From a virus, in the IMG/VR virus record IMGVR_UViG_3300028844_002446, positions 1 to 22,928 of that record: a stretch of DNA of 22,928 nt, one strand, 5' to 3'. The notes beneath the pieces are model-generated. The model ran no database searches and was not told where the DNA came from. It worked only from the letters and a program-made list of their open reading frames with translations. Below, piece by piece: positions 9,716 through 15,447 of this stretch. Numbering within the stretch: position 1 is the first letter of the stretch; every line of letters starts with the position of its first letter. Made by a program: the position numbers and the translations under genes.

Positions 9716-11308
9716 TTATGTACCTAATGCAATAACTGAAAGATCTCTAACTCTTGGAACAACATTCTGTTTCGTAGAGTTCATAACAAGTTTTACTTGG
9801 AACGTGTTGAACTCAGCAAGAGTGTTCGAAGACAAGTCACCAATGGTATGTTCGTATTCTTTGAATGTATTTGGACCAGCATTCTTACCAGGATCTGCAT
9901 CCACTGTAGAAGCGATAAATGTACCTTCAGTAAAATCTGAATCTGAACCTATGTTAGCTGTTCTATAGAATAGATCAATAGAGGTTCCTTCTTGCACGTT
10001 TGCGCCATATAGGATTTTAAGACCTGTTGCTGGCTCTTCGAGTGTAATCGCTTTCGTGATATGTTTAGCAAGAGAAGTTCCGCCCTTTGGATCAGTTTCT
10101 GCTACAAAGTCCAACGGCACGTTAAATCCAGTTGTCGCTGCTGAGTCTTGATTGTCTACAATATTACTTACAAGTGTGAGACTTGCTCTCTGTGCATCAA
10201 GGAAAGGTGCAATGATATTTCCGCCAACGTCAGTAGATATAGTCGCTGTGAGAACAGTCGATTGCGTGATAGTATGAAGATTTTCATTTGAATCATTCAT
10301 GATCACATGAGGTGCATCAAGGAATGCATCTTGGTCATTGACCAACGCCAAATTTGATGTTGTTCCATATGCAGTTTCTGACCCAGCAAATGATTTGGAT
10401 GTAGTCAAATCCCCCACAAGAGAGAAGCTACCAGTGTTTCTTGGATTGTATACACCGATATTCGGTTGGATTACATCATACTGAATCTGTTTCGAGGCAT
10501 TGATACCTGTTCCACCAAACTCAACAGCAGAGTCAGCATTTCCACCAGCACTAAACTTGTATCCAGTACCATCAATATGAGTCACTGTACGTCTACCATT
10601 TAGGTTTGCAGCAGTAATACCGTTTACTGTTCCAGACACCCCAGTGATATAAACTCGGTCATTTACTTGAAAACCGTGGTTTGCGTGTTGAACTCTCACA
10701 ACAGCAGATCCAGCAGTACCTCTGAATGGATCATCAACAAGATCTTCTTCATCTACGTTAGCATCAAAAAACTTAACTGTGCCAGAAGTTGCAGTAAAGT
10801 TTGCAATGTATAGGTTATGTTTCAAGTCCGTATCAAGTTCTGGCACTGGAGTATTACCTGTATTACCCTTGAACAGATTTCCTGGAGCAAGGTTTTTTGT
10901 GATTTTATTGGTAGTAGATCCTAGATCAAAATCAAGCACCTTACCAGCCCAAACCTTGTATGTATTTTGCTCATTTGAAAAGAGTGTGAATGCATACATC
11001 TTACCTGGATGTAGATAAACTGGCTCATCGAACTCAAACTGAGTTTCTGCAGATGCATCTGCAGAGACGGTAATAGTACTTTGATTCTTAGTAACTTGAG
11101 AACCAGGTATAATCTGATAGATGTTAGGAGTACCACCTTCCTCAATATTCCTAAGACCAAGAGTAATAGGATATGTAGTAGATTTTGCTTGAAAATACAC
11201 ACCGACTTTTGTTAAAAAGCAGCCGTGAGCATTTGGCATAATAAATGATTGTGCCATGGGGTTGACAAACTGATCGTCTGCTACGCCAGCTTTACTTCTA
11301 TATGCCAT
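9716..11308 (-). CDS. Virion structural protein with 'NPMAQSF' N-terminal domain
   Basis: This 530-residue protein is probably a baseplate or tail-associated structural protein. Residues 16-125 carry a pattern I know from marine T4-like phages: N-P-M-A-Q-S-F, then G-C-F-L-T-K-V-G-V-Y-F, a P-I-T-L-G-L-R strand, FEFDEPVYLHPGKMYAF, and a YKVWAG strand. In other phages I recall this beta-sandwich-like domain at the C-terminus of a very large structural protein rather than at an N-terminus. Residues about 207-253 (HANHGFQVNDRVYITGV to TVTHIDGTGYKF) form a second small beta domain seen repeatedly in marine phage virion proteins. The rest is beta-rich with few Cys. AAGGA lies seven bases before the ATG. 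The gene directly follows the Hint-ending protein, hinting that the two are functional partners. Confidence 0.8.
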   Translation of the reverse strand: MAYRSKAGVADDQFVNPMAQSFIMPNAHGCFLTKVGVYFQAKSTTYPITLGLRNIEEGGTPNIYQIIPGSQVTKNQSTITVSADASAETQFEFDEPVYLHPGKMYAFTLFSNEQNTYKVWAGKVLDFDLGSTTNKITKNLAPGNLFKGNTGNTPVPELDTDLKHNLYIANFTATSGTVKFFDANVDEEDLVDDPFRGTAGSAVVRVQHANHGFQVNDRVYITGVSGTVNGITAANLNGRRTVTHIDGTGYKFSAGGNADSAVEFGGTGINASKQIQYDVIQPNIGVYNPRNTGSFSLVGDLTTSKSFAGSETAYGTTSNLALVNDQDAFLDAPHVIMNDSNENLHTITQSTVLTATISTDVGGNIIAPFLDAQRASLTLVSNIVDNQDSAATTGFNVPLDFVAETDPKGGTSLAKHITKAITLEEPATGLKILYGANVQEGTSIDLFYRTANIGSDSDFTEGTFIASTVDADPGKNAGPNTFKEYEHTIGDLSSNTLAEFNTFQVKLVMNSTKQNVVPRVRDLSVIALGT

Positions 11309-11340
11309 TTATCAGTCCTTTATTTCTTTAAATTTTATCA

Positions 11341-14300
11341 TCAGTATTCACCGCATGTGCCTTCACTAGAGCCTCCACAACCTTTGTTATGAACAAGCAT
11401 ACCGTTTGCGTAATATGTATGGTTTCCACTGAGACCTAAGTTGTATAGTTCAAGTTCTGGCTCTCTTTCTTGAGGTACCCAAGATTCGATTTTCATTTCA
11501 CCAGTTTCTGTTACAATGGTTGTTCCTACATTAATGTCAACCAGATGTCCACCATTCTCTTCCATTACTGCTTCATATGTTTCTGGTTCCATTTCTCTAA
11601 ATGTATTTGCATTGATAGACCCCCAACCTTCGGTAGTCATCAATGGATGTTCTTCAGATACAAATGGTTCAGAACCATTAAATCCGTACAACATTCTTGA
11701 ACCAATAGGAACGATTTCAATATCTGACACCTCGTTGCCATGAACCTTACCACACTTATCACATTCAGAACTTTTCACAATATCACCACGTCTGACTGCA
11801 GAGATGTGTTTTGTAGATCCATCTACCATTGTAATAAGTGTATCGGAAGTGAAACACGACTGATGCACATAAGGTGGTCTGATATTTGCGGCGTATCTTG
11901 TAGCCACACTGACTGCAAAATCATATTCTCTTGTTACCAAGAACTCTTCTTGTGATACTCTTAACTCACCTTCTGCTGTAAATACACCTTTTGTATACGA
12001 TGAGGCATTAGCAGTTTTATGTGTTTGAACATCAGTAATAAGTATTTCACGTCTACCTGTATTGAACTGTATAGTTGATGTGTTTGGTATGAGAATGTAA
12101 CCAGACAACGCACCATTAGCGTCAGTAGTGTGTGTTGTTGCCCCACCAAGTACGGCAGGATATCCTGTTTCATTTTTCCATCTCTTACCCATTTTTCTGT
12201 AAATAGAATCACGAGCAAGACTTGCTTCTGCAACAAATCCACCAGTACCAGATGCCGTGCTTGCATAGCCACTTACTTCTGTTTTATCAATAAAGATGTA
12301 ATGTTTTGTATTGGGTCTCAAGCCTGTTGCTCTGATAGAAACAAACCTTGAGCGCATCTTTTTGATTTCTGTTTTAGCTACAATTTTCTCGCCTAAACTT
12401 TCAGTAACTGTTTCGCTACCAGTAAATTTCCAAGTTCTTGTAGTTGTAGTAGTGCCACCAGAGTGGAACTCTCCATTACCAGTTACCGCTGTAACACCAG
12501 TTTTCTGATCGATAATTTCGCCAACTTTATATGCATTGGCATCCTCTGCAGTAATACCTCTCCAACTAGTATCCCAGTTTTTATATTTTCTACCGTTTTT
12601 ACTAATCTTAGCACCACCGTCTACCAGCTTGTCTGGAAGATCTTTGTCTTCATACCAAACATCTGATGATGGTGACATAGTTAAAGAACCACCCATAACT
12701 TGAGTACCCACTGGATTTACAATAATGGATCTTGATGCTCTTGATTGAGAGGCAAATAACTGATGTGTATATTTGATATAGATGTTATCCCCAACACGTT
12801 TAACATTCGTTGAAGATGCCGAGTCATACACAAGAGGAACAGAATATGCTCTGAAATCTGGTCTAATCTCTCCTTTGATTTCGTCACGAGATGACCTATA
12901 GTTTGAGTCGAGTGTGTCCGTACCAATATCGTTGACAAAGTTGTCAACAAAAATACCAGACTTAAATCTGTTCAAGCCAGCACTGTCATAGATGTTAATG
13001 TTTTGCCTATTCAATTCTAACATATTGAGTGCAGTTTGTTCTTCTAGTTCGTCGATACGCTTCTCAAGCGCACCAATATCTCTCATGGTATAACGACGGT
13101 TATCTTTATATTTGACTTTCTTATCTTCAGCACTTACCATATATGGATGAAGTTCGATAGATGCAATTTCCATTGTACCATCAGCCAGTGTAGGATACTT
13201 TGGTTCGAACGCTGGTTCACCAAACTTAACCCCAACATAGCCGTCTCTATGAACAAATGCTCTACCTTTTTTACCAAGGTAGTAGTTTACGTCAAGATCA
13301 ATATTATCAGTGTTTTTAGGTAAAGGATGAATAATAGCCCCTGTCGATGTAAAGTCATCAGCACTATTTGCCTTACGAGGTCTAAAGTCTAGAACGTTGA
13401 AAAGGGATATGACGTTACCATTTGTTTGTCTGTGGCCTGGAATCTCTTCGTATGCCACTTGTCCATCATAGGAGTTTACAGCGAAGAAGTCTCCAGTAGT
13501 ACCATGGTCAAAGAAACGATACACGATATTAACATTTCCAGAAGGTGCTGGTTTACCACCTTTTAGTTTAACCGATCCAACGTCATAGAAGTTATCTCTC
13601 TGCCCATTGTCAAGAGTAAAGTTTCTTGTAATATTTTTGGAAGTTGTGGCATCAGTAATAGATGTGATGTCAAATATATCACAACGATCTAGTGTAGCAA
13701 TACCGCCTGACAATGAAACACCATTCTGTGTTCTCGTCGTAATAGTTTTTGATCTTGCTGTAGCAACTCTTTTCTTTTGGTAATATAAGAATGTAGCAGC
13801 AGAAGAGTTAGGTAAGCCAGACAATGTAACTTGTGAGACAGATGATGCAGAAACAGTAGCATCAAAAAGTGTTCCACTTGAATCAATTCCTACAAGCCAA
13901 GTTGAGGCATCAGCAAGATCAAAGGCCGTGCTAGATCTGTTGATTACCAAAGTACCTGAACCTGTTGTTGTACCAGTTCCTCTATACTGTGCAGTCACAG
14001 AAATGTCGCTCAACTCTTCTGGTCTTTCTCTTGGAAGTTCAAACAACAAGTTGTTGTTCTGCTTATCTTTGAGTTCTGCAATACCAGTTGTAGATAGTTT
14101 TACATCAAAATATTCTGTAGCCGAATCGCCAAGTGATCTTACAAGAGATATATTTTTACCAGCATTCATTCTGATATCAAACAAGTATACTCTATAGATT
14201 GATCCAACCTTTTCAAGGGATCTTACTCTTGCAGTACCAATAGTTGAACCACCGTATGTAACAGCACTTCTCAGTTGGATTTTTTCAAAAGTGGTAATGT

Positions 14301-15447
14301 CTAGTAAGTTACCCTTACCAGTAGAACACTCGAAGTAGTTGCCATATTGAGCAATCGAAGATGTATTCTGTACAAGTCCAGTTGTTCTTGGTTTTGAATA
14401 AAATGGTGTTACTGGACCACGAAGATAGTATCTGTGACCTTCTACATATGCTTTACCTGGGTTAAATGTGATATCCAGATTAGAGGCATCAGAATCATTT
14501 GTGGCAAAATCAAGAAGGAAGTTACCAACAGTGTAGTTACCAGATTCTTCATGAGTTCTTCGAGCCATCTCGTCTCCCAAAGTGGAGTACGAGTTAGCTG
14601 CACTACTTTGCTCAACAATAACACCCTTGACGATCTGAGCAACTTCAATAAATCTTTGATCCGAATCTACAGTAGTGTCTAGCGTTAACTCTAGTTTAAT
14701 CTCATGTCTGTCAGCACCTGGTGCTGCTAGGTTAAGGTTTGCACCTGAGTTATCGAATAGATCTTGATCATCACTTGAGGTGATAACTCTTTCTACTACT
14801 TTAAATCCTACATTCGCTGTTGGTTTGTCATCATACTTTCCGACGATAATGTCTTCTGCTGCTTTAAAAACAGCATGACCATCAAGGTAAAATCTACCCA
14901 ACTGTTGACGGAACACACAAGATTGTCCGATAGCAGGGTTTGCTGCAGTGTTTGTTGTTTGGATTTCAAGAACAGTTCCAGTTGTAGCACCAGTAAGAGT
15001 TGTGCCTGGAGTAAGATCTAACGCTGTTGTGACATCAGTTGGCGTTTGTCCATTCGAATCTAGAATCTGTACAAAAATTGTAGCAGGATCAGATCCTGTT
15101 GCAGCAACTGCTTTTATCAATCTTATTTTGATTCCAGTTGTAGTGGCAAATGTCTCACCAGTAATAGTAGTGAGATCTGCTGGCAAAGAGTATGTTGTAG
15201 TATTAAGTTTTACGAACTTGACGTTCTGTTCCACATCCATAAGCCCACCAGAAAGTGGAGCACCTGATCTATAAATCGCACCGAGAGCCGCTGCATTATC
15301 TTGATTCAGAATAGTCTGTAGCTGGTTGAGTTCTCTACTCTGCAAGCCACGACCAGAGTTAAATAGGATTTGATAATAGTTGTCACTATCCTTATAGTCA
15401 TCCTTATATTGAGTAAGGAATAGATCTTTGATTACTTCGGTTGCCAT
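11341..15447 (-). CDS. Giant structural protein ending in a Hint autoprocessing domain
   Basis: This 1368-residue protein has an N-terminus (LFLTQYKDDYKDSDNYYQIL, then FNSGRGLQSRELNQLQTIL) that matches, from memory, the DUF4815-type structural proteins of marine T4-like phages. A short heptad-like helix lies near 797-820 (KRIDELEEQTALNMLELN), followed by the 'FVDNF' region and a long beta-rich stretch. Residues 1198-1354 form a Hint domain: Cys1198 with F-T-S-D-T-L-I-T-M-V-D-G-S, a GDIV turn, block B S1264-E-E-H1267-P, block F LYNLGLSGNHTYYANGMLVH, and the terminal His1353-Asn1354. Only 14 residues follow, KGCGGSSEGTCGEY. The +1 residue is Lys, so full protein splicing is not expected; cleavage at one or both ends is. 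The ATG has AAGGA six bases upstream and is 12 bases after the gp8 gene. Confidence 0.85.
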   Translation of the reverse strand: MATEVIKDLFLTQYKDDYKDSDNYYQILFNSGRGLQSRELNQLQTILNQDNAAALGAIYRSGAPLSGGLMDVEQNVKFVKLNTTTYSLPADLTTITGETFATTTGIKIRLIKAVAATGSDPATIFVQILDSNGQTPTDVTTALDLTPGTTLTGATTGTVLEIQTTNTAANPAIGQSCVFRQQLGRFYLDGHAVFKAAEDIIVGKYDDKPTANVGFKVVERVITSSDDQDLFDNSGANLNLAAPGADRHEIKLELTLDTTVDSDQRFIEVAQIVKGVIVEQSSAANSYSTLGDEMARRTHEESGNYTVGNFLLDFATNDSDASNLDITFNPGKAYVEGHRYYLRGPVTPFYSKPRTTGLVQNTSSIAQYGNYFECSTGKGNLLDITTFEKIQLRSAVTYGGSTIGTARVRSLEKVGSIYRVYLFDIRMNAGKNISLVRSLGDSATEYFDVKLSTTGIAELKDKQNNNLLFELPRERPEELSDISVTAQYRGTGTTTGSGTLVINRSSTAFDLADASTWLVGIDSSGTLFDATVSASSVSQVTLSGLPNSSAATFLYYQKKRVATARSKTITTRTQNGVSLSGGIATLDRCDIFDITSITDATTSKNITRNFTLDNGQRDNFYDVGSVKLKGGKPAPSGNVNIVYRFFDHGTTGDFFAVNSYDGQVAYEEIPGHRQTNGNVISLFNVLDFRPRKANSADDFTSTGAIIHPLPKNTDNIDLDVNYYLGKKGRAFVHRDGYVGVKFGEPAFEPKYPTLADGTMEIASIELHPYMVSAEDKKVKYKDNRRYTMRDIGALEKRIDELEEQTALNMLELNRQNINIYDSAGLNRFKSGIFVDNFVNDIGTDTLDSNYRSSRDEIKGEIRPDFRAYSVPLVYDSASSTNVKRVGDNIYIKYTHQLFASQSRASRSIIVNPVGTQVMGGSLTMSPSSDVWYEDKDLPDKLVDGGAKISKNGRKYKNWDTSWRGITAEDANAYKVGEIIDQKTGVTAVTGNGEFHSGGTTTTTRTWKFTGSETVTESLGEKIVAKTEIKKMRSRFVSIRATGLRPNTKHYIFIDKTEVSGYASTASGTGGFVAEASLARDSIYRKMGKRWKNETGYPAVLGGATTHTTDANGALSGYILIPNTSTIQFNTGRREILITDVQTHKTANASSYTKGVFTAEGELRVSQEEFLVTREYDFAVSVATRYAANIRPPYVHQSCFTSDTLITMVDGSTKHISAVRRGDIVKSSECDKCGKVHGNEVSDIEIVPIGSRMLYGFNGSEPFVSEEHPLMTTEGWGSINANTFREMEPETYEAVMEENGGHLVDINVGTTIVTETGEMKIESWVPQEREPELELYNLGLSGNHTYYANGMLVHNKGCGGSSEGTCGEY
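11386..11856 (-). other. Hint (intein/hedgehog-like) domain, residues 1198-1354
   Basis: The domain carries the expected catalytic set: Cys1198 for the N-S acyl shift, block B S-x-x-H with His1267, the block F His1343, and a C-terminal His1353-Asn1354 pair for Asn cyclisation. There is no homing endonuclease insert; 157 residues is a mini-intein size. A C-x-x-C pair (Cys1229, Cys1232) with His1236 sits in a loop after the first strand block and could bind zinc. Lys at +1 and a Cys/Gly/Ser-rich tail resemble bacterial-intein-like elements more than classical inteins. Confidence 0.85.

Follow-up and report, generated by a model that had tools for sequence, protein, structure and literature searches.

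The window analyzed here is a 22,928-nucleotide stretch of viral DNA (IMG/VR record IMGVR_UViG_3300028844_002446). It encodes a large tail-baseplate protein of a marine-type phage, and this protein ends in a complete Hint domain. We give an even chance to the reading that this is an autoprocessing domain of the bacterial-intein-like (BIL) type, which sits at the linker joining the N- and C-halves of a DUF4815 baseplate protein and mainly cuts rather than splices. Among the explanations weighed below, self-cleavage appears the most likely. It is the best-supported reading in view of the predicted fold, the catalytic residues, the fixed linker site, the basic residue at position +1, and purifying selection. 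We infer activity from conservation, and both the dominance of cleavage and the mature ends of the protein are likewise predictions.

The host protein and its neighbor occupy the following positions in the window:

11341..15447, minus strand: N-half of a DUF4815/VrlC-type baseplate protein with C-terminal Hint domain, 1368 residues (phrog_358, 1.8e-210; DUF4815, 2e-45; phi812 structure 9euf, 5e-17)
12643..13773, minus strand: best Pfam DUF4815 match, residues 559-935
9716..11308, minus strand: C-half of the same ancestral protein, encoded as a separate gene, 530 residues (phrog_358 positions 1765-2054, 1.7e-88)
11316..11320, minus strand: Shine-Dalgarno-like AAGGA, 7 nt from the ATG of the C-half gene, read directly in the sequence

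By homology, the 1368-residue protein corresponds to the N-half of what most relatives encode as one chain in one gene, and the next gene supplies the C-half. The original prediction placed the Hint domain on a phage structural protein; this host can now be specified as a DUF4815 baseplate protein by sequence match. Both marks of the DUF4815/VrlC baseplate proteins are present, namely the DUF4815 match and a T4-like baseplate gene order, with gp25-, gp6-, gp8- and wedge-like genes upstream. The phi812 baseplate protein (9euf) was reached in three ways: with the sequence of the window protein, with a profile of the C-half, and with the fold predicted for a relative that lacks the Hint. In phi812, both halves lie in one chain of 1152 residues, whereas the window phage uses two genes and carries the Hint on the first. 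The homologous proteins of pf16, HTVC008M, and C48C1 are also single chains without a Hint. A programmed frameshift joining the two open reading frames was considered and set aside, given that several stops lie downstream of the Hint in its frame and that the C-half gene is preceded by AAGGA and begins with an ATG of its own.

The Hint domain comprises residues 1198-1354 at the C-terminus of the minus-strand open reading frame, with the following features:

11386..11856, minus strand: Hint autoprocessing domain, residues 1198-1354, from profile searches and predicted fold
11854..11856, minus strand: Cys1198, Hint residue 1 and predicted nucleophile of the N-S acyl shift (Cys in 78 of 78 distinct Hints)
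11647..11649, minus strand: His1267, block B histidine, invariant in alignment A6
11386..11391, minus strand: His1353-Asn1354, predicted site of Asn cyclization (77 of 78 distinct Hints have His-Asn; codons confirmed in the nucleotide sequence)
11344..11385, minus strand: tail KGCGGSSEGTCGEY, with Lys at +1 and two Cys shared by nearly every member of the window's clade

When this sequence was searched singly, the NCBIfam model intein_Cterm matched at 22.6 against a curated cut-off of 15.6, and Pfam Vint and Hint gave sub-threshold matches. Among 54 aligned Hint members, 51 matched Hom_end_hint and Vint at E<=0.01. A profile built from the relatives found the solved structures of BIL2 (2e-14), the Clostridium thermocellum BIL (5e-12), and the gp41-1 intein (3e-9). 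The AlphaFold2 model of the domain, for which one row from an annotated phage record was left out of the input, has pLDDT values of 89-97 across most of the core. Among solved structures it is closest to BIL2 (Z 19.2, rmsd 2.2 A over 145 residues), and the gp41-1 intein matches it at Z 15.8-15.9. The features of the Hint superfamily, a horseshoe beta fold (here predicted), Cys or Ser at residue 1, and a block B histidine, are all present. As alignment A2 was too diverse for the scan, two subsets were used. In alignment A6, which holds the window protein and 53 relatives, Cys1198, His1267, His1353, and Asn1354 are invariant. The complete C-terminal Hint of the original prediction, with the positions given for these four residues, is therefore borne out by profile searches, predicted fold, and conservation among homologues. 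Its block F histidine, His1343, does not belong in the conserved set, since relatives have His, Asn, Lys, Arg or other residues at this position.

Comparison with known systems places the domain closest to the BIL families. It shares the common Hint fold, Cys1, block B His, and terminal His-Asn with the type A BIL of C. thermocellum (PDB 2lwy; Z 15.6). Both domains lack a Cys, Ser or Thr at +1, so the type A signature of a terminal His-Asn without such a residue is present here. The window's group differs from type A in that its +1 residue is nearly always Lys or Arg and its host is a phage baseplate protein with a fixed linker site. BIL2 of the Tetrahymena BUBL1 locus (6y75, 6tmm) has both the nearest fold and the best sequence match. 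Its host is a eukaryotic polyubiquitin-like precursor, however, and the isopeptide ligation reported for BIL2 is a candidate chemistry for the window Hint. The class 1 intein gp41-1 (6qaz) has a similar fold and a C-terminal sequence match, but class 1 inteins use a +1 nucleophile for splicing and the residue here is Lys1355. The PT-HINT domains of polymorphic toxins are likewise autoprocessing Hints near a C-terminus, and 34 of 54 members match them at E<=0.01. They release a C-terminal toxin, though, and the window protein has only its 14-residue tail. Hedgehog Hog domains combine the N-S acyl shift with a sterol-binding region and have no terminal Asn, while Asn1354 is present in the window Hint; the Z of 14.0 to Hedgehog 1at0 reflects the common fold only.

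The residues around the two predicted scissile bonds are informative about the likely chemistry. Among the 78 distinct Hints, Cys1 is found in all and His-Asn in 77. The +1 residue is Lys in 55, Arg in 17, Glu in four, and Cys in one, which confirms the earlier observation that Lys at this position provides no canonical splicing nucleophile and extends it to the group as a whole, where 72 of 77 cases have Lys or Arg. A basic +1 argues against canonical splicing, as canonical transesterification is unavailable without Cys, Ser or Thr. BIL domains lacking the +1 nucleophile have been reported to give mainly cleaved products (PMC7664689). We propose that Cys1198 would activate the Ser1197-Cys1198 bond through an N-S acyl shift, and that Asn1354 would cyclize and break the Asn1354-Lys1355 bond, with cutting rather than splicing as the main outcome. 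In fused relatives, the Hint would cut a polyprotein into two chains at the flexible linker. In the window phage, where the gene is already broken, its sole effect would be to trim the N-half that carries it, near Ser1197. The His-Asn-Lys ending is also present in Hints of bacterial genomes and therefore marks a wider Hint group rather than a phage invention.

The same residues bear on two other explanations. The Hint fold might be kept for a structural role, for example as a C-terminal assembly domain, and catalyze little or nothing. This would fit the Hint-less split relatives L098, L100, and L103 (relatives are referred to by locus number), which have other C-terminal modules at the same place, as well as the Peptidase_S74 segments that follow the Hint in some relatives. 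We consider it unlikely given the near-complete retention of Cys1 and His-Asn; the last tandem copies in L007 and L009, which lose His-Asn, exemplify relaxed constraint. Alternatively, a different virion protein could supply the nucleophile that takes over the thioester, which would give a covalent cross-link. Such a hand-off is chemically possible for Hint domains, as in Hedgehog, and the -1 residue is Ser (28), Cys (15) or Thr (13) in 56 of the 78 distinct Hints. However, His-Asn is unnecessary for a simple hand-off and no partner is known, making the cross-link improbable. The part of the original prediction that proposed a bacterial-intein-like self-cleaving element is the best supported, and evidence for the thioester transfer or cross-linking that it also proposed was not found.

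Self-cleavage is also consistent with where the domain sits. It is preceded by a fast-diverging linker:

11857..11907, minus strand: pre-Hint linker, residues 1181-1197, ending in Ser1197 (position -1), defined by identity to near relatives

Identity to near relatives is 29-53% in this linker versus 72-81% in the DUF4815 domain. In the Hint-less relative L188, the junction lies between two predicted beta domains and has pLDDT under 50 at 317-342; in other Hint-less relatives the linker is about 9 to 95 residues long. Aligned with these proteins, the Hint is seen to sit at the flexible inter-half linker. All fetched loci with both halves were sorted by architecture: 146 are fused without a Hint, 13 are fused with one or two in-frame Hints at the junction, 36 are split with a Hint (overlapping fetches of the same contigs and near-duplicates counted), and four are split without one. 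In most fused loci with a Hint, the C-half begins within a few residues of His-Asn, as in L083 (LLAHN|RDPLAQSF), L062 (HN|RSDPLAQSFF), L069 (HN|RDPLCQTF), and L085 (HN|KPIAQSF); L039 has a longer spacer. In the split lineages, including that of the window, the Hint stays on the N-half. Fission does not need the Hint, because two lineages (L098/L099 and L100/L103) are split without it.

All Hint-bearing DUF4815 loci found are on uncultured viral contigs. Three different Hint queries against an isolate phage collection retrieved no Hint-bearing protein annotated DUF4815; matches were to another protein of a Providencia phage, to helicase-type proteins of Vibrio and Lactobacillus phages, and to Ruminococcus and Achromobacter phages.

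Hints occur in several other arrangements as well. Two or more are found in tandem in phage proteins of L084, L007, L009, L010, L023, L034, L036, L038, L041, and L081, and the last copy lacks His-Asn in several tandem-Hint proteins. The 1838-residue open frame of L096 contains, at 656-1746, six full tandem Hints, of which four are near-identical, and a seventh that is degenerate; in several places a single Lys links His-Asn to the next Cys. A Peptidase_S74 chaperone-like segment lies between the Hint and the stop in L049, L055, L060, and L097. A C-terminal module, ICTxL...GYxxW, follows the Hint in L023, L030, L034, L048, and L095 and is present without a Hint in L098 and L100; the two copies searched had no Pfam match. 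In L054, L071, and L087, another phage protein begins with the Hint, after which come HNKGGGG and a long region common to the three. The DUF4815 part is broken again near profile position 227 in L032, L039, L042, L045, L046, L051, L052, L078, and L086, and this second break in the L032-L086 clade leaves adjoining or overlapping open reading frames.

A host tree was built from both halves (134 rows, quick LG+G4). It implies about five changes in Hint presence and four in the split state, counts that do not separate gain from loss. The window's clade consists of 12 rows that are split with a Hint or reach a contig end (support 99), and its sister is two split rows without a Hint (L098, L099). 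In another clade, split rows with a Hint are nested among fused rows with a Hint (supports 92 to 100). This nesting favors the order of Hint first and split later in that clade. When Hint and fission were compared in a tree-aware pair test, the pairs were too few for a significant result. The Hint and host trees conflict, and in comparisons with L003 and L005 dS is 0.34-0.44 in the Hint versus 0.8-1.2 in the rest of the gene; compared with its flanks, the region of low synonymous divergence is 11344-11856. On the basis of this conflict and the lower dS, the Hint appears to have been exchanged as a cassette between lineages. Its dN/dS is 0.14-0.15 against L003 and L005 and 0.30 against L022, ratios that indicate that the Hint is still under purifying selection after the split, as measured against close relatives.

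These patterns would also be expected of a selfish mini-intein repeatedly invading the linker site, given the roughly five changes in Hint presence, the conflicting trees, and the low synonymous divergence relative to the flanks. Inteins favor conserved motifs as insertion sites, whereas the site here is a variable linker. Moreover, the 157-residue domain is too short to also hold an endonuclease, and +1 is not Cys, Ser or Thr. We regard this as the least probable of the readings weighed.

Two observations do not sit easily with simple cutting. Cys1, His, and His-Asn persist after the gene split, where decay would be expected if the Hint served purely to separate the halves. In addition, the 14-residue tail after Asn1354 (KGCGGSSEGTCGEY), correctly delimited in the original prediction, keeps its two Cys in most of the window's clade, which is unexpected of a discarded peptide. 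Because these Cys are kept, ligation of the tail is the main rival to self-cleavage. The Hint would excise itself and join Ser1197 to the tail, leaving KGCGGSSEGTCGEY on the N-half, and in fused relatives the halves would be rejoined. The nucleophile could be a tail Cys or one of the two amines of Lys1355, either the alpha-amine or, as in BIL2, that of the side chain. We judge this ligation a serious but less likely alternative. In its favor, +1 is almost always basic, and the tail pattern [KR](G/P)C-x7-15-C persists in nearly every member of the window's clade, with L006 as an exception, while the remaining tail diverges. Furthermore, BIL2, the nearest solved fold, is reported to splice by ligating through a Lys side-chain amine (PMC8616854), and a title cited in PMC7664689 describes ligation without nucleophilic side chains for the C. 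thermocellum BIL domain. However, Arg is frequent at +1 and gives no isopeptide by the side-chain route; that route therefore cannot be general, and a general isopeptide mechanism was set aside. The tails of the other split clade (L032-L086) also lack the Cys pattern, and ligation of the halves is not required, since the protein functions as two genes in several lineages.

With self-cleavage as the preferred reading, we tentatively suggest a broader account. The baseplate polyprotein would be matured by a self-cutting Hint with a basic +1, which would have entered a single linker on several occasions and been exchanged between lineages. Later gene fission would fix the cut in the genome. The domain of the window's clade may also ligate the two-Cys tail onto the baseplate protein.

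Hint self-processing is well known from inteins, Hedgehog proteins, and toxins. A keyword search of open-licence literature, covering DUF4815, VrlC, and intein-like tail proteins, retrieved no report of it in a phage baseplate protein. If active, the domain would give tail assembly a maturation step that needs no protease. The progression from a single chain, through an in-frame Hint, to two genes would then document in nature how a post-translational cut turns into a genetic one. The set of Hints with a conserved basic +1 is also a resource for probing new ligation or cleavage chemistry.
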